Assembly (NCBI GenBank): GCA_015233155.1
Contig: JADFYG010000017.1
Span: 1 to 64,000, forward strand
Reading direction: 5' to 3'
From: Candidatus Rifleibacteriota bacterium
Lineage (GTDB): Bacteria > Muiribacteriota > Ozemobacteria > Ozemobacterales > Ozemobacteraceae
Length of the DNA: 64,000 bases
In this document: positions 1,732 to 14,986 of the stretch, in pieces
Numbering within the stretch: the stretch's first letter is position 1
Layout of the letters: each line of letters starts with the position of its first letter
Notes under the pieces: model-generated
What the model was told of the DNA's origin: nothing
Seen by the model: the letters and a program-made list of their open reading frames with translations, nothing else
Databases searched by the model: none
Position numbers and translations under genes: made by a program

Positions 1732-2097
1732 TCATAACGCCATGGTTATCTGCTCATCCTCCTCATCCTGTGATTCTGAGACAACGGTATCTGAAGACTC
1801 CTTCGGATCAGATACGACAAAGTGATCAGGGTCCTCCAGCAAACCTGGCATTCCAATGACCTTCATCTGACGCTGAGCCTCCCGGGTCATTCCGTATACA
1901 CGCACACTGTCCACAGTCGCATCGATCAGCTTCGAAATCTTTCCCATCATCTCATCGAATCGGGGACCTTCCAGAAATGTTTCAAAGACACTTTTCTGGA
2001 CAGTAACAGCGTAATTTTTCAACATCTTGTGCAACTTCCGGCGCCGCTTATCAGATGGCGTATCGTAACAAATAATATAAAACATGCCGCTGCTCAT
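1732..2097 (-). CDS. cas2: CRISPR-associated endonuclease Cas2
   Basis: Cas2 forms the dimeric core of the Cas1-Cas2 integrase that inserts new spacers at the leader end of the array. The 121-aa product starts with the family signature: a beta-strand FYIICYDTPSDKRRRKL containing the conserved Asp, then VQKSVFE, in a ferredoxin-like fold. Typical Cas2 proteins are 85-100 aa. This one has an extra C-terminal tail of about 30 residues (from roughly residue 90) rich in Asp, Glu and Ser. The start codon overlaps the end of cas1 by 4 bp (ATGA), so the two are translationally coupled. The acidic tail is unusual and could mediate a partner contact, which is inference. Confidence 0.95.
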   Translation of the reverse strand: MSSGMFYIICYDTPSDKRRRKLHKMLKNYAVTVQKSVFETFLEGPRFDEMMGKISKLIDATVDSVRVYGMTREAQRQMKVIGMPGLLEDPDHFVVSDPKESSDTVVSESQDEEDEQITMAL

Positions 2098-3098
2098 CGC
2101 GTAGTTACCGGCTTATATTCAGCCGCCTCCCCGAGCACCACCGATTTGTACTGCCACGCCTGCTGGGTAATCAAATCCTTTAACGCATACGATTTTCCAT
2201 TCACCGGATGAGTTACCGAATCTGAAAGCCGACTCTGAATACCCTTGACAAACCTGGCAATCGCCCCCTCCGACATTCGAACCCCCTTGCCATCCTCGAC
2301 CCGGAAATCACCCGGAACCATCTCGATCCGATTCACAAGGGAAAGCACCGTCGAGTCGACGACGAGCGTGCGAAACTCCTCCATGAGATCAAGCGCCAGA
2401 GATGCACGCCGATCATCGATCGCATGCAGATTCGACAGCATCGGATCGAGACCGGCTCTCTCCACAGCCGACAGGACACGATTGAACAACAACGTGTAAC
2501 CGAAACTCAACATCGCATTAACCGGATCAGTCGGCGGTCTCCTGACTCTCCCGGCAAATCCCAGATCCTGCTTCAGAAGACACCGCAGCCCCTCGAAATG
2601 ATACCGGGCCGCCGTTCCCTCGATTCCCATCAGTTCATCGACCGTCTTCGCGTCATCCAGCGCATCAAGACAGTCCTTCACACCAATCACCTGACCGGCC
2701 AGAATTTCATCACGATTTCGATTCTGTCGCATCAGCCAGACACGGCTGATCCCAAGCTTCCCCCGAACCATCTCCCGGGAAACCCGCAGGCGAAATTCCG
2801 GGTCGGACGCCCTCTCATACTGCCGCATTCTGCAGCGGACAGCCCTCGGCTGTAAATTGGATACACGACATTTGAACCGGCCATCCATGGTCAGAAACAC
2901 GACGTCGATCGATCTCCGCTGTAACGCCATCAGCGCCGAATGCGTCACGTCAACTGAACCCATACAGATAATTTCCTGGACACGAAAAAACGGCACATCG
3001 TTAAGAATCTTTCCCTCCCGGGATCTCACGAGCATCCGCTCCCCTACCCTCGCGAGCCGGGCTCCCTGGGCCGTAATGTAAACTGCCGCGTCTTCCAT
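2094..3098 (-). CDS. cas1: CRISPR-associated integrase Cas1
   Basis: Cas1 is the metal-dependent integrase subunit of the spacer-acquisition complex. The 334-aa length is normal. The conserved active-site residues are visible: E160 in MGIEGTAAR, H225 in SNLHAIDD, and D237/E240 in ALDLMEEFR. The usual PPTDPVNAMLSFGYTLL segment lies at about 188-204. A strong Shine-Dalgarno GGAGGTGA lies 5 nt before the ATG at 3098, which fixes the start. The stop overlaps the cas2 start by 4 bp. A Prim-Pol gene lies 132 bp upstream on the same strand, suggesting one adaptation operon. No Cas4, reverse transcriptase or effector gene is present in the window. Confidence 0.97.
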   Translation of the reverse strand: MEDAAVYITAQGARLARVGERMLVRSREGKILNDVPFFRVQEIICMGSVDVTHSALMALQRRSIDVVFLTMDGRFKCRVSNLQPRAVRCRMRQYERASDPEFRLRVSREMVRGKLGISRVWLMRQNRNRDEILAGQVIGVKDCLDALDDAKTVDELMGIEGTAARYHFEGLRCLLKQDLGFAGRVRRPPTDPVNAMLSFGYTLLFNRVLSAVERAGLDPMLSNLHAIDDRRASLALDLMEEFRTLVVDSTVLSLVNRIEMVPGDFRVEDGKGVRMSEGAIARFVKGIQSRLSDSVTHPVNGKSYALKDLITQQAWQYKSVVLGEAAEYKPVTTR

Positions 3099-3230: not shown

Positions 3231-5450
3231 TCATACCCTGGGGGAGGGTGCTTCTTCTGAGTCCCCGACACCGCCGGTATCCGATACTACTTCTTCATGA
3301 GTCGTAATACCGGGAGACGCATTCTCAGCACCGTCATTAATTGTTTCGGAAGACTGTAAAGAGCCTTCCGGCAAAGCCCCGTCTCCGCCACCTTCTTCCG
3401 GCGGCAGCTTTTTGTATTCGCCGATACCCGTAGTAATCACGTCGCGCCCGGCCTCCTCAAACAAACGATTGATGCGGCGTCTCAGCAGGCGCTCGCGATC
3501 GGACATCCGACGCAGGTCAGCCTGGAGGTTGGCATATTCCCGCATGATGGCATCAATGCCGGCGCTCGCTCCGATAATTTCTTCCCTGCCGGACAAACAC
3601 GCCGGCGAACGATCGAAGCCGCGTCTCCCGCGCGCAACCGCGTTCCCCGACGGGATCATTCCCGCATAGATCAAAGGCGACGGATAACAACCGTCAGGAA
3701 TGCGAAACTGACAGTCACAGCCGCTTGCTTCCGCGACATCCGGAAGATTGCGCCGGACTTTCGCACAGCTCATCGTGGTCGGAGGCACAGCCCGCAATGC
3801 GCGATTCACCTCATTCGCGTCATATCCGGGCGCCTGATTCAGTATCTGATGAACGGTAATGCGCCCCTCCTCTTCAAGGGACCCGAGAAGATATACCAGA
3901 ACGTGACGCTCGGCTCGATCGAGGGCTTCTCCCATAGAAGCCTTTTCGGCAAGTGTCCAGAGCACCCGGCAACCTGAAAAAAGATTTTCAATCGTATCGG
4001 AAAATCTTCCCGGCAAAGGAATACGAACGCTCAATGATATCGCGTCCTCACACGAAGCCGGTGAAATGCCTGTTGTCGGGGTTGAGAGAGACGAAGGCAG
4101 AGGCAGAGACAGAGTCGTCCCGGGCAAATCAACGTCGCGGTTTTCCCTGACAGACCTTGCATCTCGGGCATCATCGGCAACATTCTGAATCGTAAGGCGA
4201 CCGAGCAGTTCCTCGACTGACGCTCTGTTGAGTGAGCGAAAACCAGTAAACCCCTCAGCTTGATCAGGAAATGGACGAAAAGGTCCACGGGAAAGAAGGA
4301 ATGAACGCTTTCCCGACCGGCCATGAATACCGAGAGGAATCTTTACGAGGTTTCCCAGCCCCTCGGGTTCGACGCGGGCCTGCTTGGGAAACAGTTCCCA
4401 GTGAAGCTCGCGTGGAGGCGCGTCGAGGCGTTCGAGAAGCCAGTTTCCGACGGCGCGCACCTGTCGGCAGGACAGAGGCTCTTTATACAGCGTCCAGAAA
4501 TGCAAACCCTTGAACCCCGAAAACTCTGCCAGTAGCGGCAAACCTACAGAGTCAGCCAAAGCATACAAACGGTCGGCCTGTTCCATAAGGAGCCGCTTGA
4601 TGCGGCGACGTTCCAGCGGATCCTTTTCGTAACGTAACGTGAACGGCCGCGTCACGTCGAGATCGAATACCATGAGCCGCGTGGAGTTATCGCGTCTCAC
4701 GAGATATGTTCCGAGCGTCACATCGCCGGCAAGATGACGCTTGAGCTGGTCGGGATCGAGACCTTTGCGAATCGGGCGATATCCCCATTCCCCCTTTTGC
4801 AGACGGCACTGAAGGGCATGAACCCCTTCCCGGCCGGCGAACTGGTCTAGAAATGCCTCAATGAAGGTGTTGTCCATCGGGATTGCGGGAGCATCGGGAC
4901 CGGTTTCCTCCCTGACTTCGCGAACAGATTCATCGACCCGGCGACGGGCATTTGCCGCCTGAACGAGCCGTTCCCGGCGCCCAAGCAGACCAGGATCCCT
5001 CGGCGAGCGTTCAAGCAGTTCGGACAGGCGCTTTTCGGCTGCAGCAGGCTCGTTTAACAGCTCGAGGGCATCTACCGCCAGAGCTCCAAAGGCAATAGAT
5101 GGACCAGCGCCGGTAAATATGCCGCAAGCGGCATCGGCAGCTTCAAACGCTTCCGTGTGGAAGCCGCCTTCGATGAGAAGTTCAATGTGCGCGCTTCTCA
5201 TGTCCGCGCGATCCGGAAAACGCTGAACGAGGCCTTCAGTCATGGCAATGCCCCTGGAGAAATCCTCGGTCTGGGCGATAACCCGTGCGTAGAAGGCAAG
5301 AAGATTCGGATCAGCCGTCGCCTGATCACTGCAAGGGCCTGAAAGGAGATCGCGGGCTGCCTGTGGATTCCCTGCACCCAGACAGCGGCGGGCGTCGGCA
5401 AGCAGTCGAAGAAGAGTCACCTGGCTGGTACTGGTTTGATCATAAAGCAT
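3231..5450 (-). CDS. TPR-containing archaeo-eukaryotic-type primase-polymerase, CRISPR-associated Prim-Pol (CAPP) type
   Basis: The 739-aa protein has helical, TPR-like repeats at about 15-165. An AEP primase-polymerase domain follows at about 195-400: FAGREG, the metal-binding motif I VFDLD (D263, D265), motif II SGFKGLH (H317) and NLVKIPLGIHGRSG (about 368-380). Next come a low-complexity linker (430-465) and a C-terminal module with C494, C562, C578, C580 and C588, ending GCYPSP, which looks like a metal-binding (Zn or Fe-S) fold. The tail is Glu/Gly/Ser-rich. Prim-Pols encoded beside cas1-cas2 have been described as CRISPR-associated Prim-Pols thought to supply or mature DNA for spacer capture. 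The location directly upstream of cas1 on the same strand fits that. The ATG at 5450 follows GGAGA. A TOTE-type conflict-system primase is the alternative family, but the neighbours favour CAPP. Confidence 0.82.
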   Translation of the reverse strand: MLYDQTSTSQVTLLRLLADARRCLGAGNPQAARDLLSGPCSDQATADPNLLAFYARVIAQTEDFSRGIAMTEGLVQRFPDRADMRSAHIELLIEGGFHTEAFEAADAACGIFTGAGPSIAFGALAVDALELLNEPAAAEKRLSELLERSPRDPGLLGRRERLVQAANARRRVDESVREVREETGPDAPAIPMDNTFIEAFLDQFAGREGVHALQCRLQKGEWGYRPIRKGLDPDQLKRHLAGDVTLGTYLVRRDNSTRLMVFDLDVTRPFTLRYEKDPLERRRIKRLLMEQADRLYALADSVGLPLLAEFSGFKGLHFWTLYKEPLSCRQVRAVGNWLLERLDAPPRELHWELFPKQARVEPEGLGNLVKIPLGIHGRSGKRSFLLSRGPFRPFPDQAEGFTGFRSLNRASVEELLGRLTIQNVADDARDARSVRENRDVDLPGTTLSLPLPSSLSTPTTGISPASCEDAISLSVRIPLPGRFSDTIENLFSGCRVLWTLAEKASMGEALDRAERHVLVYLLGSLEEEGRITVHQILNQAPGYDANEVNRALRAVPPTTMSCAKVRRNLPDVAEASGCDCQFRIPDGCYPSPLIYAGMIPSGNAVARGRRGFDRSPACLSGREEIIGASAGIDAIMREYANLQADLRRMSDRERLLRRRINRLFEEAGRDVITTGIGEYKKLPPEEGGGDGALPEGSLQSSETINDGAENASPGITTHEEVVSDTGGVGDSEEAPSPRV

Positions 5451-7534: not shown

Positions 7535-8182
7535 ATGATTAAGATACGGGATAACGACGGCGATGAAGCGACAGAACTGGCATGGGAATTCCTTTCGAAC
7601 TCTTATGGAGGTTCTGACCGCGCACAGAAACTGAAGCGGTCGAAGGAGTTGCGGCCAGATCATTCATCAGCGTCCTCCGCTGCCAAAAAAACAGGTTATT
7701 TTCCTGATGAAAATTTTCGGCCGCCGCGTTCGATTGCTCCAGGGAACCGCGCTGCAAGAAAACAGCTTGCTGAAAAGAAGGAGCGTTTTTCCGGATTGGC
7801 TACCGGGGAAATTCAGCCGATCTACAACGCTTCGTGGCAACGCATCGATCTCGTTAAAACAAAGGTTCCGGGAGAACTCCATCCCGGACTCGGTTGCGAG
7901 CCATGGGTAGTCGCGTTCGGGACAAGCAGATGGACTCCGGACCGCGATAAGAACCCTGTTATTCTGAAGGTGTGTAGTGAGAATCATCCCTTTCTGGAAA
8001 GGGACACTTTCTTCCTGCTGAAATCACGACTGAGAATTACACCGGCAGATGTGGCTTTTGGCAGTAAACCACACGGTATGGTTCAGGAGTCGGCACTCGA
8101 AGAACTGCTCAGCAGAATTTCGGACATCGACCGGGTCACGACCTTTTCCGGCGCCTCGATTGGCAGGGAATGCACGGCGTGA
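7535..8182 (+). CDS. hypothetical protein, first gene of the Lon-like operon
   Basis: The protein is 215 aa and soluble, with no signal peptide. Residues 1-85 are charged and probably disordered. From about 95 on there is a compact domain with GLGCEPWVVAFG, then NPVILKVCSENHPFLERDTFFLLKSRLRITPADVAFG in outline, and a C-terminal helix ELLSRISDI. The pattern of a buried barrel (WVVAFG, PVILKV, LRITPADV) faintly recalls small SH3-like toxins such as PemK/MazF, but I see no catalytic signature and do not assign it. AGGAG at 7519-7523 precedes the ATG at 7535. The end overlaps the start of the next gene by 13 bp, so these genes are one transcription unit. Confidence 0.7.
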   Translation: MIKIRDNDGDEATELAWEFLSNSYGGSDRAQKLKRSKELRPDHSSASSAAKKTGYFPDENFRPPRSIAPGNRAARKQLAEKKERFSGLATGEIQPIYNASWQRIDLVKTKVPGELHPGLGCEPWVVAFGTSRWTPDRDKNPVILKVCSENHPFLERDTFFLLKSRLRITPADVAFGSKPHGMVQESALEELLSRISDIDRVTTFSGASIGRECTA

Positions 8183-9495
8183 CTACAGAACCGAAACGGG
8201 ACATGGCATCAAAAAGTATTTCCGGCGTATTACCAGCCGGAGAACGACGTTGCTTCAAGGATTTTCTGGAAGCATATCTGGAAACGCAGTCGGAAGAGAA
8301 TTTCATTCTTTTGCAAATGCACGTGGCTCGAAGGTTCAGAACATTTCTCAGACAGCATCCTAACTTCAGGCAACTGTTCTCGCGACTGGAAAAAGGATCC
8401 ATCCAGGACACTGCCGATATCGGCGATGACGGCTCAGCTGACGCATTCGGTAACGTCTGGGCAGAGATATTGAATGTTTCCAGGGCAGCTGACGCCACGG
8501 GCAGAAAGCAGGCTGATATTCTCCTGCTATGGGTTCGCGGGAAACTGAATGACAATTCCGATGGCTATCTCGAAACGATATTCAGAACATTCTGCATCAG
8601 GGAGCAACGGACGCTTGAAGGAAACGAGTTTTCGAATCTTCAAAACGATATTCGCAAGGCCCTGAAGCTGTTGGTCAATAAAAACAAGGTCTTTGAGAAT
8701 AATAATTATTACAGAGGTTGTGAGAAAGAGGCAACCGGTCGTGGAAACAGCGATATGGTGGATAGGCAGGTCGTAAAGGCCCTCCCTATCGAATTTCGAC
8801 AGGATCGGGAAACGAAACCATACCAAAACCTCGAACAATCCATCCTCGATTTTCTTACAGCAGAATTACATCGGCATCGGGAATGGAAAACGGGTGTACT
8901 TGCAACAGTTTTCGGGAAGCACCTTGGTATCCGGCCGCAGTTAGAGTCCATGGACAAAAATGATGATGAAGGAAATCCCGATTCGTCCCTTGAACATGAA
9001 GTCAGCGGAAAACTTCAGGCGGATACCTGTTTATCAGATTCAGTATCTGATGCCAACAACAGTGAAGTGGAGCAAGCCTGGGCCGAGGAAAGTCTTGCAT
9101 TTATTGATAATTCAGATCTCAAACAAGTACAAAGCATCCATGTCGGTCTGCTCTGGCTTTGTCGGACAAATCCGGAAATCATGGGCAAGACCGGCATTGA
9201 CTCTGCATTATTCAGGGAAATAACTGAAGTTCAGGATGGGCTTGCCTGGATCGCAAAAATATTGAACCTGGGAAAAGCGGCAATCTTGAGTAATAACGAT
9301 GGCAAATCCGCCAAGGGAATAACGCATTATCGAAATGAATATTTCGGGAAATTTATCAAGCGCCGTCTGGAGGAAGCCGTTCGCCGTGAGCTCCTCCCCG
9401 GACCAGCAGTAACGAGGCTGATTCACATGCTCGTCAAGCGGTATCCCTTCCCTCAAACAATGAGTGGACGGCCATCGGAGGTTTCGCATGTCTGA
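8170..9495 (+). CDS. hypothetical protein, second gene of the Lon-like operon
   Basis: This 441-aa, mostly helical protein has no transmembrane segment and no family that I recognise. The N-terminal third (about 25-75) is helical with many Arg and Phe (MHVARRFRTFLRQHP), and there is a helical block at about 105-210. A variable acidic linker at about 255-300 separates it from a C-terminal helical domain ending in FIKRRLEEAVRRELLPG and LIHMLVKRYPFP. The ATG at 8170 overlaps the upstream gene by 13 bp, and its own end overlaps the next start by 8 bp (ATGTCTGA). The tight overlaps imply that its product is made together with the Lon-like protein. A DNA-binding or adaptor role is possible but unsupported. 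Confidence 0.7.
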   Translation: MHGVTTEPKRDMASKSISGVLPAGERRCFKDFLEAYLETQSEENFILLQMHVARRFRTFLRQHPNFRQLFSRLEKGSIQDTADIGDDGSADAFGNVWAEILNVSRAADATGRKQADILLLWVRGKLNDNSDGYLETIFRTFCIREQRTLEGNEFSNLQNDIRKALKLLVNKNKVFENNNYYRGCEKEATGRGNSDMVDRQVVKALPIEFRQDRETKPYQNLEQSILDFLTAELHRHREWKTGVLATVFGKHLGIRPQLESMDKNDDEGNPDSSLEHEVSGKLQADTCLSDSVSDANNSEVEQAWAEESLAFIDNSDLKQVQSIHVGLLWLCRTNPEIMGKTGIDSALFREITEVQDGLAWIAKILNLGKAAILSNNDGKSAKGITHYRNEYFGKFIKRRLEEAVRRELLPGPAVTRLIHMLVKRYPFPQTMSGRPSEVSHV

Positions 9496-10570
9496 GTCAC
9501 GTTGTCCGTCCATATCCCTGCTCGCCGACTTCCGGAAGGGACGCATTTCCGGAAGTAAAAAAAATGCCGTCGAGGAACCCCTCAGGTCGTGGGAAGTTTG
9601 CCGGTTTACGCTCTCACTGCCTGCCGCCGGACCATCTTCCGGCTTCTCCCGGGAAGCTGCGCGGATGTTCGAGCTGACGACACAACCACGACCACCCCAT
9701 CTGGCGTTCGGTCAGATCTGGCGAATTGTCTGTCCTGAATCGACACCGGAATTAGCTGTCCTGACCTTCGGCGAGAAGCACTCCCTCGATCCGGAACGCC
9801 CCGACCTGCGGGTCTGTCTTCTGGTTTTTGATTTCATGGAAACCGAGCTCGCCGGCCGGGGTGAAATTATGACTGAGGCCGGCGAATCACCCCTCGAACG
9901 GAGTTTTCTTATCAAGACCTGGGATGAGCGACCGATTCTCGCCGATCAGCTCGACCAGTATTTCGGGCAGCTGGCTGAGCAGAAAGCCGGAATCCTGAAA
10001 GAGACGCTTGAAATGCGTTTCACGAATCCCGATTTCGACGGGAATCCTGGCGCAACGGTTCTGGCATTCCGCGATCGCGAGATTGCCGCCGCGACTGCTT
10101 TTTCCCGCCCATATCTCAATCATTTTCTTGCCGTTGAACGGCGCGAGCTGCATGAAACCAAGGAAATACCCGAAATACAGCCGCTTCCGTCAGGAACCCA
10201 CATTTTCGAGATCGAACTTCCTGCACATCCTTTGGAATTCCATTCATGTAATGAAGAGAACCCTGTTCGATATGCCGCGAAGACCACGGAAGAGCTGGAA
10301 GAGCGGCTCGAGATGATATACGGACGACTCAGATCCATCAGGCAGGCGAAGCAGCTCCCGCCGGGAGTGCACCTGGAGCGAACCTCGGATGGACTATCAC
10401 TTTCCGGCTCGCATGATTTTGCATTGCAGTTTACGTTCAGGGGCAAACCTTCCGAATTTTCATTGAAGAGCCATGGCGGAAAGCTTTCCATCAGGTCGAA
10501 GGATCTTGCTGATTGCCCCAACTTCGACGGTTTCTTCTTCACCAGGCGACCATTACGGAAGATACTGTAA
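9488..10570 (+). CDS. hypothetical protein, third gene of the Lon-like operon
   Basis: I chose the ATG at 9488 because it overlaps the upstream stop in ATGTCTGA; an upstream in-frame start at 9464 would lengthen the overlap to 32 bp. The product is about 360 aa. It has a mixed alpha/beta N-terminal part (HLAFGQIWRIV, LAVLTFGEKHSLDP, LRVCLLVFDFMETELAG), a central helix-strand part (FLAVERRELHE, FEIELPAHP) and a coiled helix at about 265-295 (TEELEERLEMIYGRL). The C-terminus is beta-rich (FALQFTF, KLSIRSKDL). No family is recognised. It lies 1 bp before the GTG start of the Lon-like gene, which argues for a shared complex or pathway. Confidence 0.7.
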   Translation: MSESRCPSISLLADFRKGRISGSKKNAVEEPLRSWEVCRFTLSLPAAGPSSGFSREAARMFELTTQPRPPHLAFGQIWRIVCPESTPELAVLTFGEKHSLDPERPDLRVCLLVFDFMETELAGRGEIMTEAGESPLERSFLIKTWDERPILADQLDQYFGQLAEQKAGILKETLEMRFTNPDFDGNPGATVLAFRDREIAAATAFSRPYLNHFLAVERRELHETKEIPEIQPLPSGTHIFEIELPAHPLEFHSCNEENPVRYAAKTTEELEERLEMIYGRLRSIRQAKQLPPGVHLERTSDGLSLSGSHDFALQFTFRGKPSEFSLKSHGGKLSIRSKDLADCPNFDGFFFTRRPLRKIL

Positions 10571-10571
10571 C

Positions 10572-13500
10572 GTGAGTGCATGGGCGCTACTTGCGGAGCG
10601 ACGCGAGCTGATCGCCCGCGCTTATCGCGAACCCCTGAAATCTGAAGATTCCGGTGCCATCTGGCTCGAGCTGAAAAAGCCGATTGGCGGGGCGGACGAT
10701 ATCGAAAATCAGGCCAGTCGCATTCTTCTGGACGTCTGGCGTCACCGGCCGTCCAGACTGTTTGATATCGCTGCAGCAGTGTCAGCCGGACGGCTTTCGC
10801 CCGGAATCGATATGGAAGATATTGCCGACGCACTTGTCACGGAATGCTGTGCGTGCGGTTGGCATTCCGTGCCCCTGTTGGCGGCAACTGACGAAGACCT
10901 CGAGAGATTGAAAAACTCATTGAATGACATTCCGCGGCGCCCGGACGTTGTCAGATACATTGAAACCGAGATCAGACTCCGCGGGGACCGTCTCAACTCC
11001 AGTCCCAACACGGTTTCTGAACGCAGTGATCTGCCGAATCCGGCATTTGTAGCCGTTAAAGAGAGTGCAGAGGATGGGATACCATTGATCGGCGGTTTCA
11101 TCGCCGTATCTGATAATATAATTCAGCGTCTTACCTGCAAGGAGAACACGGCAGCCGGAGAGCAGTTTCAGACCGCCATTCGCAATGCGGCGGCCACGCT
11201 GCATAAGGCGTATCGAAGTTATTCGCCTGTTTCACTCATAGAGCCGCTGACCCGGCTCTTCGAGATTCCGATCGATGGGGCTTCAGTCGGCCTGGCAGCC
11301 TGGCTGTTCGGCTGGTTGAGATTCCGTCGTCTCGATCCGCCGCTTTTACTGGCCGCAACCGGCAACGTCATCGACGGCAAGGTGTTGGGCGCAGATCCCC
11401 GAACGATAGATCAAAAAATTTCTGCGGCGTTAGCGACTGGTTATATGCGTTTTCTCGCCCCGGCTGCAAACAGGCGAGACAGCGTCAGGTGGAAAGACGA
11501 TATCCGAGTCATCTGGATAGACAGGGTGGACCAGATCGTGGAATGGTTCGCGTCGCAATCGATCTGGAATGCGCGTCGCGATGTTGAGATGCTCCTGTCG
11601 CGCAAAACTCTTCTGCCGCTGGAAGCAGCGCTCGAAGGTCTTGATCTGATGTTCCGGGAAAACCTCCGTCGAGACCGTCCGTTTTCCCTGATCCGGGATC
11701 TGCGCGCATCTTTGCGCGAAAGCGTCGCCAGGTGCCGTGTAACATTGTTCAAAAATGTGATCGATCGTTTGCGAATGCTCTACCTCAACCTCTGGAACGG
11801 CAATGCGAGCCACGGAGGAAACCCCGAAGCGTGGGTGTCATGGCTGCGCCACCTGGTATCGCCGGAGATCTTCTTTTTTCATCTTCCATTTCTGTTGCGG
11901 GAGTTGCACGAACGCGGAGATAGCGGGCTTCGCGAGCGTCTCGCCAGCGAAATGCTTCATCGGGTTCTCGATCACGACGTCGATGCTTCCATGGCATTGG
12001 TGAACGGTCGAAAGTTCTTTGATCCGCTTGCGGGCTCGTCGAAAAGTATATTTTGCAACATTGATTTTCGTAAAGCATTGCCCCATCTGCTCTGGATGGC
12101 TCTGGATGAACCATCCCGGGCCATTCTGGTGCTTGCGGGACTCGACGGGCTGTTACCATTCGAAGAAGAATGGCTGAGAAGCTGGATACAGGTGCTCGCA
12201 GGGATTTCCCCCGATGACTATGCAAGAGCCGGCATTTCAGAATATCGATCGTTCCTCGAGCCCGTAATGACAGATGTCCTGGGACTTATATACCCTGGAT
12301 TCCGCCCGGGGCTTGCCAATCCATGCGCCTACCCTGAACGCCTCGCCAATCTCTGGCTTGGAGCGAGGCTGGTTCGTGAGCGGTTTGGTGAAGAAGTTGC
12401 CAGACCACTGGAACAGCATTTTCAGGCGCATTTGCGTGCTCCGAAACCGGCCTCTGGAAATGATATTCCGGCCGCACTGGCTGATTATCCCGAATTTCCG
12501 CACCTGATCGGTCTTGAATTACCTGCTTTAAGGTCCGCAAGAAAAAAACTGGACTCGCCACAACTTGGGAAACGTCCGATACTCGATAGTCTGCGCAAGA
12601 CGATCGATGATGAATTGAGAAGAATTGAAGAATCTGCTCAGCCAGCGTCCACGGATGGCGTAAGTAAAAAAAAGACTCCACCGGAGGACGGTTCACCGAA
12701 AGGCTGGCAGCGTGAGCTTTCCCATTTACTGAACCAGGAAAAGCTTCTTTCGGAAAAACGACGGCATGCCAGGCCGATGCGGTCGAAACATCTGACGACC
12801 ACGGGCACATTGCACCGCTCATTATGGATGACACGATTGGCTAAGGCCGTATGCGACTCGGTTACCGGTACAGTTGATGGTGACAAACCGGCGTCTTCGC
12901 CGGTCCAGATGTTTATACAACCTATGCAGTTGCTTGCGAATTTCCATCTTTCAGAAACCGTCGCTCCCCATCATTTTTTTGACTCGTTGCAAGGCTGGTG
13001 CGCCGGGCACCAGGGAGGACGTTCGCTCGCCGCCCAGTGCCTGGCCTATCAGGCTGTCCGCATGGCGTTAATAGCCGGGAAAGCGCTTCCGAAAACATCC
13101 AATATGGGAACTGAGTTCCATCTCGCAGTCGTTGCGGCATTAGTAACTGGACAGGCTGGCGACGAGACATCGCTGCCCCCGGCCTGGCTGGAAACCGCGA
13201 TCAGCCGGATTGCTGATGCGGAGCCCCAGGAACTGCTCTGGCTTCTCTGGATACCTCCAGCTCTTCTTCCCGAATTGAGAGATGCTGTTGACGCCAGAGC
13301 CCGGGCTCTTTGCGCGTCTCTTGATAATCACAATCCGGATTATGACAGATCGAGGGCGGAAATTGGGCTTTTCGTGCTGGGGGCCTCCCCCTGGCGCAGA
13401 GATTTGCCTGGTGTTTATGCTGCCCGCGCACGCAAGGCTCTCCGGGAACAATTGCGCCAATACAGGGAAAATCCGGATCTTTCCCGCTACATGATTCAGA

Positions 13501-13850
13501 TTTGTGCGCCATGGTATCTGCTTAACGCCGGGCGCTGGCGGGAACTTGTCCCTTTGTTCAAAAAGACGGTCCACCGGACGACCACTTCCACGTTTGCCGT
13601 CATGTATGCGGCATTGATCCTGTGCCGGCCGAATCGTCTTCGGGACCGTCATCTGCACCTGAGCCGCGGAGGCCTCGGCATCCCACGGCTATGGGCTTCC
13701 AGCCTGGAACGGCAGATGTTCGGGACCACAAGGCTTCTCGAGGCTTTCACGCGGAATGACCGGCGACTTATGACGCGCTTATTTCTTTGGCGGGTGGAAG
13801 AGTTGCCGAATCTTTTTCTGGCCTCGCGTCTCATTGAAAAATTGGACTGA
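10572..13850 (+). CDS. large protein with a Lon-type (S16) Ser-Lys peptidase fold and no visible ATPase
   Basis: The GTG at 10572 follows the upstream stop by 1 bp; ATG codons further upstream lie inside the previous gene. This gives 1,092 aa. Residues about 160-305 match the Lon proteolytic domain: IPIDGASVGLA (nucleophile S238), LLLAATGNVIDGKVLG, then TIDQKISAALATGY (general base K282) and FLAPAANR. The S-to-K spacing of 44 is close to the 43 of E. coli Lon (S679, K722), and the TGN-DGKV segment replaces the usual TGEITLRGKV. I see no Walker A/B motif, so no AAA+ motor. The remaining 780 residues are helical and unfamiliar, with a disordered linker at about 685-735. It is the last of four overlapping genes. 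A motor-less Lon-fold domain suggests a signal-activated protease, as in the CRISPR-associated CalpL, but that is inference. Confidence 0.75.
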   Translation: MSAWALLAERRELIARAYREPLKSEDSGAIWLELKKPIGGADDIENQASRILLDVWRHRPSRLFDIAAAVSAGRLSPGIDMEDIADALVTECCACGWHSVPLLAATDEDLERLKNSLNDIPRRPDVVRYIETEIRLRGDRLNSSPNTVSERSDLPNPAFVAVKESAEDGIPLIGGFIAVSDNIIQRLTCKENTAAGEQFQTAIRNAAATLHKAYRSYSPVSLIEPLTRLFEIPIDGASVGLAAWLFGWLRFRRLDPPLLLAATGNVIDGKVLGADPRTIDQKISAALATGYMRFLAPAANRRDSVRWKDDIRVIWIDRVDQIVEWFASQSIWNARRDVEMLLSRKTLLPLEAALEGLDLMFRENLRRDRPFSLIRDLRASLRESVARCRVTLFKNVIDRLRMLYLNLWNGNASHGGNPEAWVSWLRHLVSPEIFFFHLPFLLRELHERGDSGLRERLASEMLHRVLDHDVDASMALVNGRKFFDPLAGSSKSIFCNIDFRKALPHLLWMALDEPSRAILVLAGLDGLLPFEEEWLRSWIQVLAGISPDDYARAGISEYRSFLEPVMTDVLGLIYPGFRPGLANPCAYPERLANLWLGARLVRERFGEEVARPLEQHFQAHLRAPKPASGNDIPAALADYPEFPHLIGLELPALRSARKKLDSPQLGKRPILDSLRKTIDDELRRIEESAQPASTDGVSKKKTPPEDGSPKGWQRELSHLLNQEKLLSEKRRHARPMRSKHLTTTGTLHRSLWMTRLAKAVCDSVTGTVDGDKPASSPVQMFIQPMQLLANFHLSETVAPHHFFDSLQGWCAGHQGGRSLAAQCLAYQAVRMALIAGKALPKTSNMGTEFHLAVVAALVTGQAGDETSLPPAWLETAISRIADAEPQELLWLLWIPPALLPELRDAVDARARALCASLDNHNPDYDRSRAEIGLFVLGASPWRRDLPGVYAARARKALREQLRQYRENPDLSRYMIQICAPWYLLNAGRWRELVPLFKKTVHRTTTSTFAVMYAALILCRPNRLRDRHLHLSRGGLGIPRLWASSLERQMFGTTRLLEAFTRNDRRLMTRLFLWRVEELPNLFLASRLIEKLD

Positions 13851-13961: not shown

Positions 13962-14123
13962 ATGGAAACATTCAAAGCGGCCCTGAACCTTGCAGTAGGT
14001 CTGATTCTAGGCGCGGCTGCCCTCAAGGGCGCCAGAACGCTGTGGAAGTTCGTCGAAATCGACGATATCTCCACTGATCAAGCTGATGAAGCGAGGGAGA
14101 CCGGCAATGACAACACCAAATAA
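13962..14123 (+). CDS. small single-pass membrane protein, 53 aa
   Basis: A good Shine-Dalgarno (GGAGGAG at 13950-13956) precedes the ATG at 13962. The product starts METFKAALNLAVGLILGAAAL, giving one short membrane helix, followed by LWKFVEIDDIS and a charged tail. The stop overlaps the start of the next gene (ATG 14107). A short membrane protein just after the Lon-like operon could belong to it, but 111 bp separate them. Function unknown. Confidence 0.55.
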   Translation: METFKAALNLAVGLILGAAALKGARTLWKFVEIDDISTDQADEARETGNDNTK

Positions 14124-14986
14124 CGCCATGAATCTGGTTCGGCTTCCGTTCCGGCTCGCCAAGCGGGCAACAGCTCCAGTTGCGGATTTCGTCGAACGTC
14201 ATCTCGGCGACGAGATCCAGCAGATAGTTAGCCGCAATTACAGATTGGTGACGAACAAAAAAGCACTACAGATGGCTGATCAATGTTGCCGGACAGTTTT
14301 TCCGGAAACAAATGCCGGGAATGGGAAATCACGGCAATTGATGCCCCCGGAACTGCCGGGCATTGTTTTATTGACCTTGTTCACAATTCAGCCACACTCG
14401 ATTTCAGCGGGTATCCGCCACTGAACGACCGGATGTTTTTGGACCTTTCATACGCGTTCCGAACAGCTACAATGCGCTTCGGGCATTGTCATTCGACATC
14501 GGATTCTATCGAAAAGTATGCAGGAATGGTTTGATCCTGCCTGAAAACGTGATCAAATACCGCTTTGCCCATGTGCGCCGTGAGATCGGTGAAACAATTG
14601 AGTTTGATGTTGACCATGAAAAGTTGAAGAACCTTAAATCCAGTTTCAATGAGCTTCTTGGAAAGTTGCGAAATTGTGCTGTCCCCCACTCAACCTTTGT
14701 TCCATTCATCCGTGGCGTGCTTTGTCTCAAAGAACCATCAAAACCTGACAATCACAACGCCTCTGAATGGGCTGAACTTTCCGTTCATATTGGCGAAATG
14801 AACAAGCGTTATGCAAGTGAACTGGGTGAAAATGCCTACGCCGTTTTCAACGTTCTCACCGAATTCGCATCACATCCGCCCGTGAACCATTTTGTCCGAC
14901 GCAATCGTCACAGCATGCAACGTATTGTCGGAACCTGGCTCAATGAATTCAGCCGGGAGTGTGTTAAAGAGAGCCACAGGTCATGA
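14107..14986 (+). pseudogene. DUF932-like protein gene, broken by two frameshifts
   Basis: Three overlapping frames together read as one protein. Frame one (from ATG 14107) gives FVERHLGDEIQQIVSRNYRL and NKKALQMADQCCRTVF. The next frame continues EWEITAIDAPGTAGHCFIDL and LDFSGYPPLNDR. The third gives FGPFIRVPNSYNALRAL, FDIGFYRKVCRNGL and on to the stop at 14986. The NSYNALRAL...VCRNGL block is typical of DUF932 proteins found in phages, plasmids and islands. The frames join exactly if one T is added to each of two TTTTT runs (14297-14301 and 14436-14440), giving about 290 aa. Either the gene has decayed or the T runs were under-called. The role of the family is not established. Confidence 0.6.

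Follow-up and report, generated by a model that had tools for sequence, protein, structure and literature searches.

Two kinds of bacterial system in which a protease acts on an anti-sigma-type protein come close to the locus described here. CalpL is a motor-less Lon-fold protease of type III CRISPR systems that is encoded with CalpT and with CalpS, an ECF sigma factor. CalpT, the substrate of CalpL, is MazF-like, and its MazF-like fragment was first proposed to act as a toxin (PMC9704534); CalpT is an anti-sigma factor (PMC11417357). In the type III-E Craspase/Csx30/CASP-sigma system, a protease, an anti-sigma-type substrate and a sigma factor are encoded beside CRISPR adaptation genes (PMC10028731). 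A third point of comparison is offered by the pairs formed by ZAS-type anti-sigma factors and ECF sigma factors, and a fourth by Lon and LonB (MEROPS S16), which share their S16 fold with RadA, a non-proteolytic protein.

The window, by which we mean the whole stretch of 64,000 nucleotides that was analysed, contains a four-gene operon (genes 1 to 4; Table 1) that we are inclined, with moderate confidence, to read as a protease-triggered transcriptional switch, in which a signal-gated gene 4 would cleave gene 3 and thereby free gene 2. As the earlier note had observed, gene 4 is the last of the four, and the genes are packed tightly, with overlaps of 13 bp (8170-8182) and 8 bp (9488-9495) and a 1-bp gap before position 10572. 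The ATG of gene 3 is preceded by GGAGG, and an alternative GTG upstream (9464) is less likely; an in-frame ATG at 10473, upstream of the GTG of gene 4, would give a protein of 1,125 aa. The three upstream proteins had been called unfamiliar, and they are: none of the four operon genes was named by any library searched, and hmmscan run directly with the window proteins returned nothing useful for genes 1-3.

Table 1. Features of the operon and of its upstream neighbourhood, in window coordinates
Feature	Position	Strand	Basis
TPR + archaeo-eukaryotic primase protein (CRISPR-associated PrimPol type)	3231-5450		beside cas1
Gene 1, 215 aa, no assigned fold, conserved HPGL and VAFGTS motifs	7535..8182	+	synteny in 8 complete loci
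Gene 2, 441 aa, HTH protein, putative sigma-like factor	8170..9495	+	family homology E 1.7e-13; sigma-4-like C-terminus
Gene 3, 360 aa, anti-sigma-like + MazF-like protein	9488..10570	+	family homology E 1.1e-26
Gene 3, N-terminus: anti-sigma-type zinc-finger region with a degenerate motif here	9488..9622	+	zf-HC2 in 4/8 members; profile matches
Gene 3, MazF/PemK-like domain, approximate limits	9695..10027	+	hhalign to PemK family
Gene 4, 1,092 aa, motor-less Lon-like protease (putative)	10572..13850	+	GTG start
Gene 4, S16 (Lon-fold) core, residues about 225-330	11244..11561	+	PDB profile search; NCBIfam LonB 231-324; model pLDDT 80-88 at about 261-320
Gene 4, Ser238 codon, putative nucleophile	11283..11285	+	invariant in A3; aligned with archaeal LonB
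Gene 4, Lys282 codon, putative general base	11415..11417	+	invariant in A3; aligned with archaeal LonB
Gene 4, long C-terminal alpha-helical region, putative sensor or scaffold	11604..13847	+	model all-helical, variable confidence; Foldseek uninformative

A search of genome neighbourhoods, which the earlier note had proposed, found the gene order 1-2-3-4 to recur: there are eight complete loci, consisting of the window and seven in relatives of the same family (L015, L017, L018, L019, L020, L021 and L053). Two more, L014 and L052, run off the ends of their contigs. Counting the cut loci, the system occurs in nine genomes of seven genera, all of one Candidatus Riflebacteria family. With models that excluded the window and its paralogue, and with the search space set to 1e5, the window genes are homologous to the family at E 0.0011 for gene 1, a weak match, and 8.8e-30 for gene 4 (genes 2 and 3 are given in Table 1). 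The paralogue is a second copy of the operon in the same genome (L014; contig C17, 3230-10220), whose gene 4 shares 65% identity with that of the window; a split IS-type transposase lies downstream of it. One further operon (L054; G018:C62, 7959-11336) has decayed, genes 2 and 3 being broken by stop codons and gene 4 shortened, with gene 1 still open. A sample of 382 genomes yielded no full-length gene 4 beyond this family. Searches of GTDB contigs with the window gene 4, of viral contigs with its L018 homologue, and of plasmids each returned none, and a literature search found no description of the same gene set in the library that it covered.

The claim from which the analysis started was that gene 4 presents an S16-like context without the motor of Lon. 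The motifs are where they were said to be: DGASVGL contains Ser238, IDQKISAAL contains Lys282, the spacing of the two residues is 44, and TGNVIDGKVLG lies between the motifs. The fold assignment held when a profile of eight gene 4 homologues (A3, 8 rows) was searched against the PDB: all 49 chains matched were Lon or RadA, with E values from 2.2e-9 for the best to 0.14, and only S16-fold chains were matched. In these matches, the conserved Ser and Lys of A3 fall on the corresponding Ser and Lys of archaeal LonB. The window gene 4 on its own matches NCBIfam LonB (residues 231-324, E 0.0027), and no Pfam family. Seven residues are invariant in A3, namely Ser238, Lys282, G236, G264, G269, P297 and N300. 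Since the homologue profile matches solely S16-fold chains in the PDB, and given the LonB match and the invariant residues, we take the S16 match to be more than chance. Loss of the Ser or Lys, which the earlier note had named as evidence that would count against its reading, was not seen; the dyad is kept in all 11 of the homologues that span the region, whose identity is 15-30% outside close pairs. At low scores, A3 also matches ORFs of Lon-like length within the phylum; of these, the one in the window's own genome (L056) was read and is Lon.

The motor is absent from gene 4, in which a motif scan found no Walker A and no simple Walker B pattern. Pfam likewise matched no AAA+ domain, so that the combination of AAA+ and S16 domains that defines Lon is lacking, and a sequence scan found no strongly hydrophobic stretch. 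It is thus well supported that gene 4 carries a Lon/S16 domain with a Ser238-Lys282 dyad and without an AAA+ unfoldase. It shares the fold with Lon, LonB and RadA and the Ser-Lys dyad with Lon; outside this domain it is helical and unrelated to them. Because RadA has the same fold, we infer activity from the dyad only, and gene 4 is accordingly termed a putative Ser-Lys protease. In the AF2 model of gene 4, the second half of the S16 part (residues about 261-320) is the one well-predicted stretch, and the remainder is mostly helical, at lower confidence; the Ser lies close to the N-terminal end of a helix and the Lys in the helix that follows. A Foldseek search with this model returned helical solenoids alone, with TM-scores near 0.1, and was discarded.

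Gene 3 is predicted to join an anti-sigma zinc-finger-type region to a MazF-like domain. Its N-terminus is homologous to the anti-sigma zinc-finger regions of ZAS-type proteins: the match to zf-HC2, found in half of the members, is weak, and a search with positions 3-54 of the gene 3 profile returns anti-sigma-type genes that adjoin ECF sigma genes, an adjacency that we read at L090, L091 and L092. The HxxxCxxC motif is present in the paralogue and in most relatives, and the region is missing in L052. The window copy has a degenerate form of it (PLRSWEVC, against HLNSCDIC in the paralogue), in which two zinc-binding residues are lost. The second domain aligns with the PemK/MazF family over the length of the domain, with an hhalign score of 39.0 against a maximum of 18.6 in a null of 300 column shuffles, none of which reached it; the hhalign probability is 71-78%, below the usual 95%. 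Like the ZAS-type pairs, gene 3 has an HTH gene directly upstream; unlike them, it has the added MazF-like domain, no evident membrane segment, and a partner, gene 2, that sigma factor models do not recognise.

The C-terminus of gene 2 does resemble ECF sigma region 4, scoring 22.9 against a shuffle maximum of 15.1 (0/300), over an HTH match of just 26 columns. Its N-terminus did not score significantly above shuffles against sigma region 2, and Pfam, NCBIfam and Foldseek did not recognise gene 2 as a sigma factor. An AF2 model was made for the gene 2 protein of L020 and is of fair quality, with a mean pLDDT of 79; both terminal parts of the model are helical, and the part between them includes a small beta sheet. 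Foldseek returned nothing significant for this model; the chain at rank 2, a sigma factor in a transcription initiation complex, has an E value of 1.8 and was not counted. Because the match covers 26 columns and the region 2 and Foldseek comparisons are not significant, we describe gene 2 as an HTH protein that takes the place of a sigma factor in the operon and not as a demonstrated sigma factor; it is probably an HTH transcription factor, a divergent sigma-like one. Gene 1 was considered as a further MazF-like protein, and this is unsupported, as 23 of 300 shuffles reach its score.

Variants of the gene set outside the family and elsewhere in it bear on how the parts belong together. At L185 (G350:C84, 5893-7452), outside the phylum, a MazF-like domain of the gene 3 type and an S16-like part are fused in one ORF. 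At L184 (G068:C30, 5668-10201), also outside the phylum, the parts are encoded one after another: an HTH-containing ORF, then a MazF-like gene, then two S16-like ones. The two loci are linked to one another by matches of L184_B and L184_C to L185_B (E 3.6e-52 and 1.9e-11), and to the operon by matches of profile A3 to L184_D (E 1.3e-6) and of the gene 3 alignment, A8, to L185_B (E 7e-6). The fusion and the adjacency are good evidence that the gene 3 domain and the protease work together. A different combination is found at L088 (G018:C33, 3022-9370), where a gene 2-3 pair precedes an S16-like protein that carries a fused histidine-kinase ATPase domain, and a response regulator gene comes next; another gene 2-3 pair occupies 11288-13651. 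We also noted an S16-like ORF of 216 aa (L055; G018:C113, 5764-9227) near protein-kinase-like and von Willebrand-type ORFs, which recalls other conflict systems. At L183 (G068:C35, 1144-10412), a MazF-like domain is fused to TPR repeats, and the gene adjoins an AAA+ protein fused to a FHIPEP-matching region, together with a possible sigma-like ORF. This last ORF, upstream of the MazF-TPR gene, looks sigma-like by eye, yet its E value is 0.78 and it was not counted.

Regulated proteolysis would suit an operon that encodes an unfoldase-free protease together with an anti-sigma-type protein and an HTH factor; CalpL/CalpT/CalpS and Craspase are precedents for this logic. In the switch that we propose, both reception of the signal and binding of the substrate are probably tasks of the long helical protein of gene 4, in which the S16 domain is embedded, and gene 3 would bind gene 2 as an anti-sigma-type inhibitor. 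When a stress signal reached gene 4, gene 3 would be cleaved, and gene 2 would then be released to change transcription. Catalysis, gene 3 as substrate and gene 2 as released regulator are inferred, as are the signal and the role in defence.

The likeness to CalpL that the earlier note had drawn stands for the company the protease keeps and fails for its sensor. On the one side are the MazF-like anti-sigma-type gene 3, the HTH gene 2, the fusion at L185, and relatives of the operon in a type III CRISPR neighbourhood, two loci in all; on the other, Pfam, NCBIfam and PADLOC detected neither a SAVED nor a CARF domain in gene 4, which has instead a long C-terminus and, in a low-confidence model, is all-helical outside the S16 part. 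Gene 2 also differs from CalpS in not being a recognisable ECF sigma factor, the operon has an extra fourth gene and is not always near CRISPR, and no chain named CalpL was among the PDB matches of A3. As the sensor domain was looked for and not found, we do not file gene 4 as CalpL, though its anatomy is CalpL-like. With Craspase (Cas7-11/Csx29), Csx30, Csx31 and CASP-sigma, the locus, through its putative sigma-like factor, shares the protease/anti-sigma-type/sigma logic beside CRISPR adaptation genes; unlike gene 4, Craspase is a CHAT-fold protease in an RNA-guided complex, and no sequence relation was found.

The CRISPR adaptation locus that the earlier note had placed near the operon consists of an array (25-456) and cas1 (2094-3098; Pfam E 1e-85), which together with the PrimPol gene lie within 7.5 kb upstream of the operon. 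The contig starts inside the array. The Rpn nuclease said to follow the operon is also there, as a PDDEXK_2 ORF (Rpn-type) downstream on the opposite strand; at 14086-14986, a DUF932-like sequence runs across two reading frames and resembles a broken gene. Csm1 is encoded in the same genome, on contig C169. The operon at L018 is flanked on both sides: a CARF-HEPN gene (PADLOC E 1.9e-70) lies 143 bp upstream of it, and 88 bp downstream there is a Cmr cluster. At L017 it is divergent from cas6, at less than 200 bp, beyond which come a TM1812-type CARF gene and Csm1. A gene-2-like ORF at L089 lies about 650 bp from RAMP genes, and the contig of L016 carries an array of 22 repeats. The surroundings of L020 and L053 lack type III CRISPR-Cas genes, and several of the loci are not close to CRISPR genes. 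Cas10 is present in 7 of the 9 genomes with the system and in 3 of the 14 family members without it (Fisher p 0.012), a count that leaves out G013, which has a gene-2-like ORF only, and a p value that ignores relatedness and incomplete genomes. The type III CRISPR link of the operon is frequent, not obligate.

For at least two relatives, then, type III CRISPR activity is a plausible trigger of the proposed switch, and elsewhere other inputs, such as a fused histidine kinase, may replace it. A more specific version would make the operon a class of type III CRISPR effector, in which the gene 4 protease takes up an infection signal without CARF or SAVED, through its large helical region (for example, via a bound CARF protein or effector complex), and switches on the transcription factor by cleaving the MazF-like anti-sigma protein; in relatives the same kind of module would have a different sensor attached, a histidine kinase being one example; we offer this tentatively, as a possibility on the unlikely side. 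The same switch might instead answer a general stress or envelope signal and have no part in defence, its closeness to CRISPR reflecting shared genomic islands. G007 and G014, which carry the operon and in which Cas10 was not detected, fit this, as does the G018 version with its Lon-like domain-histidine kinase fusion and response regulator gene; the spacing of the operon at L018 and its divergence from cas6 at L017 sit poorly with it, as does the co-occurrence with Cas10, and we consider it rather unlikely.

A further alternative gives gene 3 the active role: its MazF-like domain would be an RNase, freed or activated by gene 4 to arrest growth, and gene 2 would do no more than autoregulate the operon. 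The resemblance to MazF/PemK and the toxin role first proposed for the CalpT fragment speak for this (PMC9704534), but gene 3 shows no conserved arginine in the column that aligns with the arginine of the MazF RP motif (alignment A8), and the domain shares its protein with an anti-sigma-type region; we judge a released toxin improbable. The S16 domain could also lack catalysis, like that of RadA, and act in scaffolding or binding instead. This would agree with the RadA chains among the profile matches and with the low confidence of the model in the S16 part outside residues about 261-320, but we regard it as very improbable in view of a Ser and Lys retained by every spanning homologue at such low identity.

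If the proposed switch is correct, the set of a Lon protease, a MazF-like anti-sigma protein and a transcription factor would be a modular signalling unit and no peculiarity of CalpL, with a sensor that is exchanged between CRISPR and other inputs. Functions would then be proposed for gene families that carry no annotation in the libraries searched, and the operon would provide a cloneable gene set with which to study how the detection of viruses or stress is turned into a transcriptional response in bacteria.
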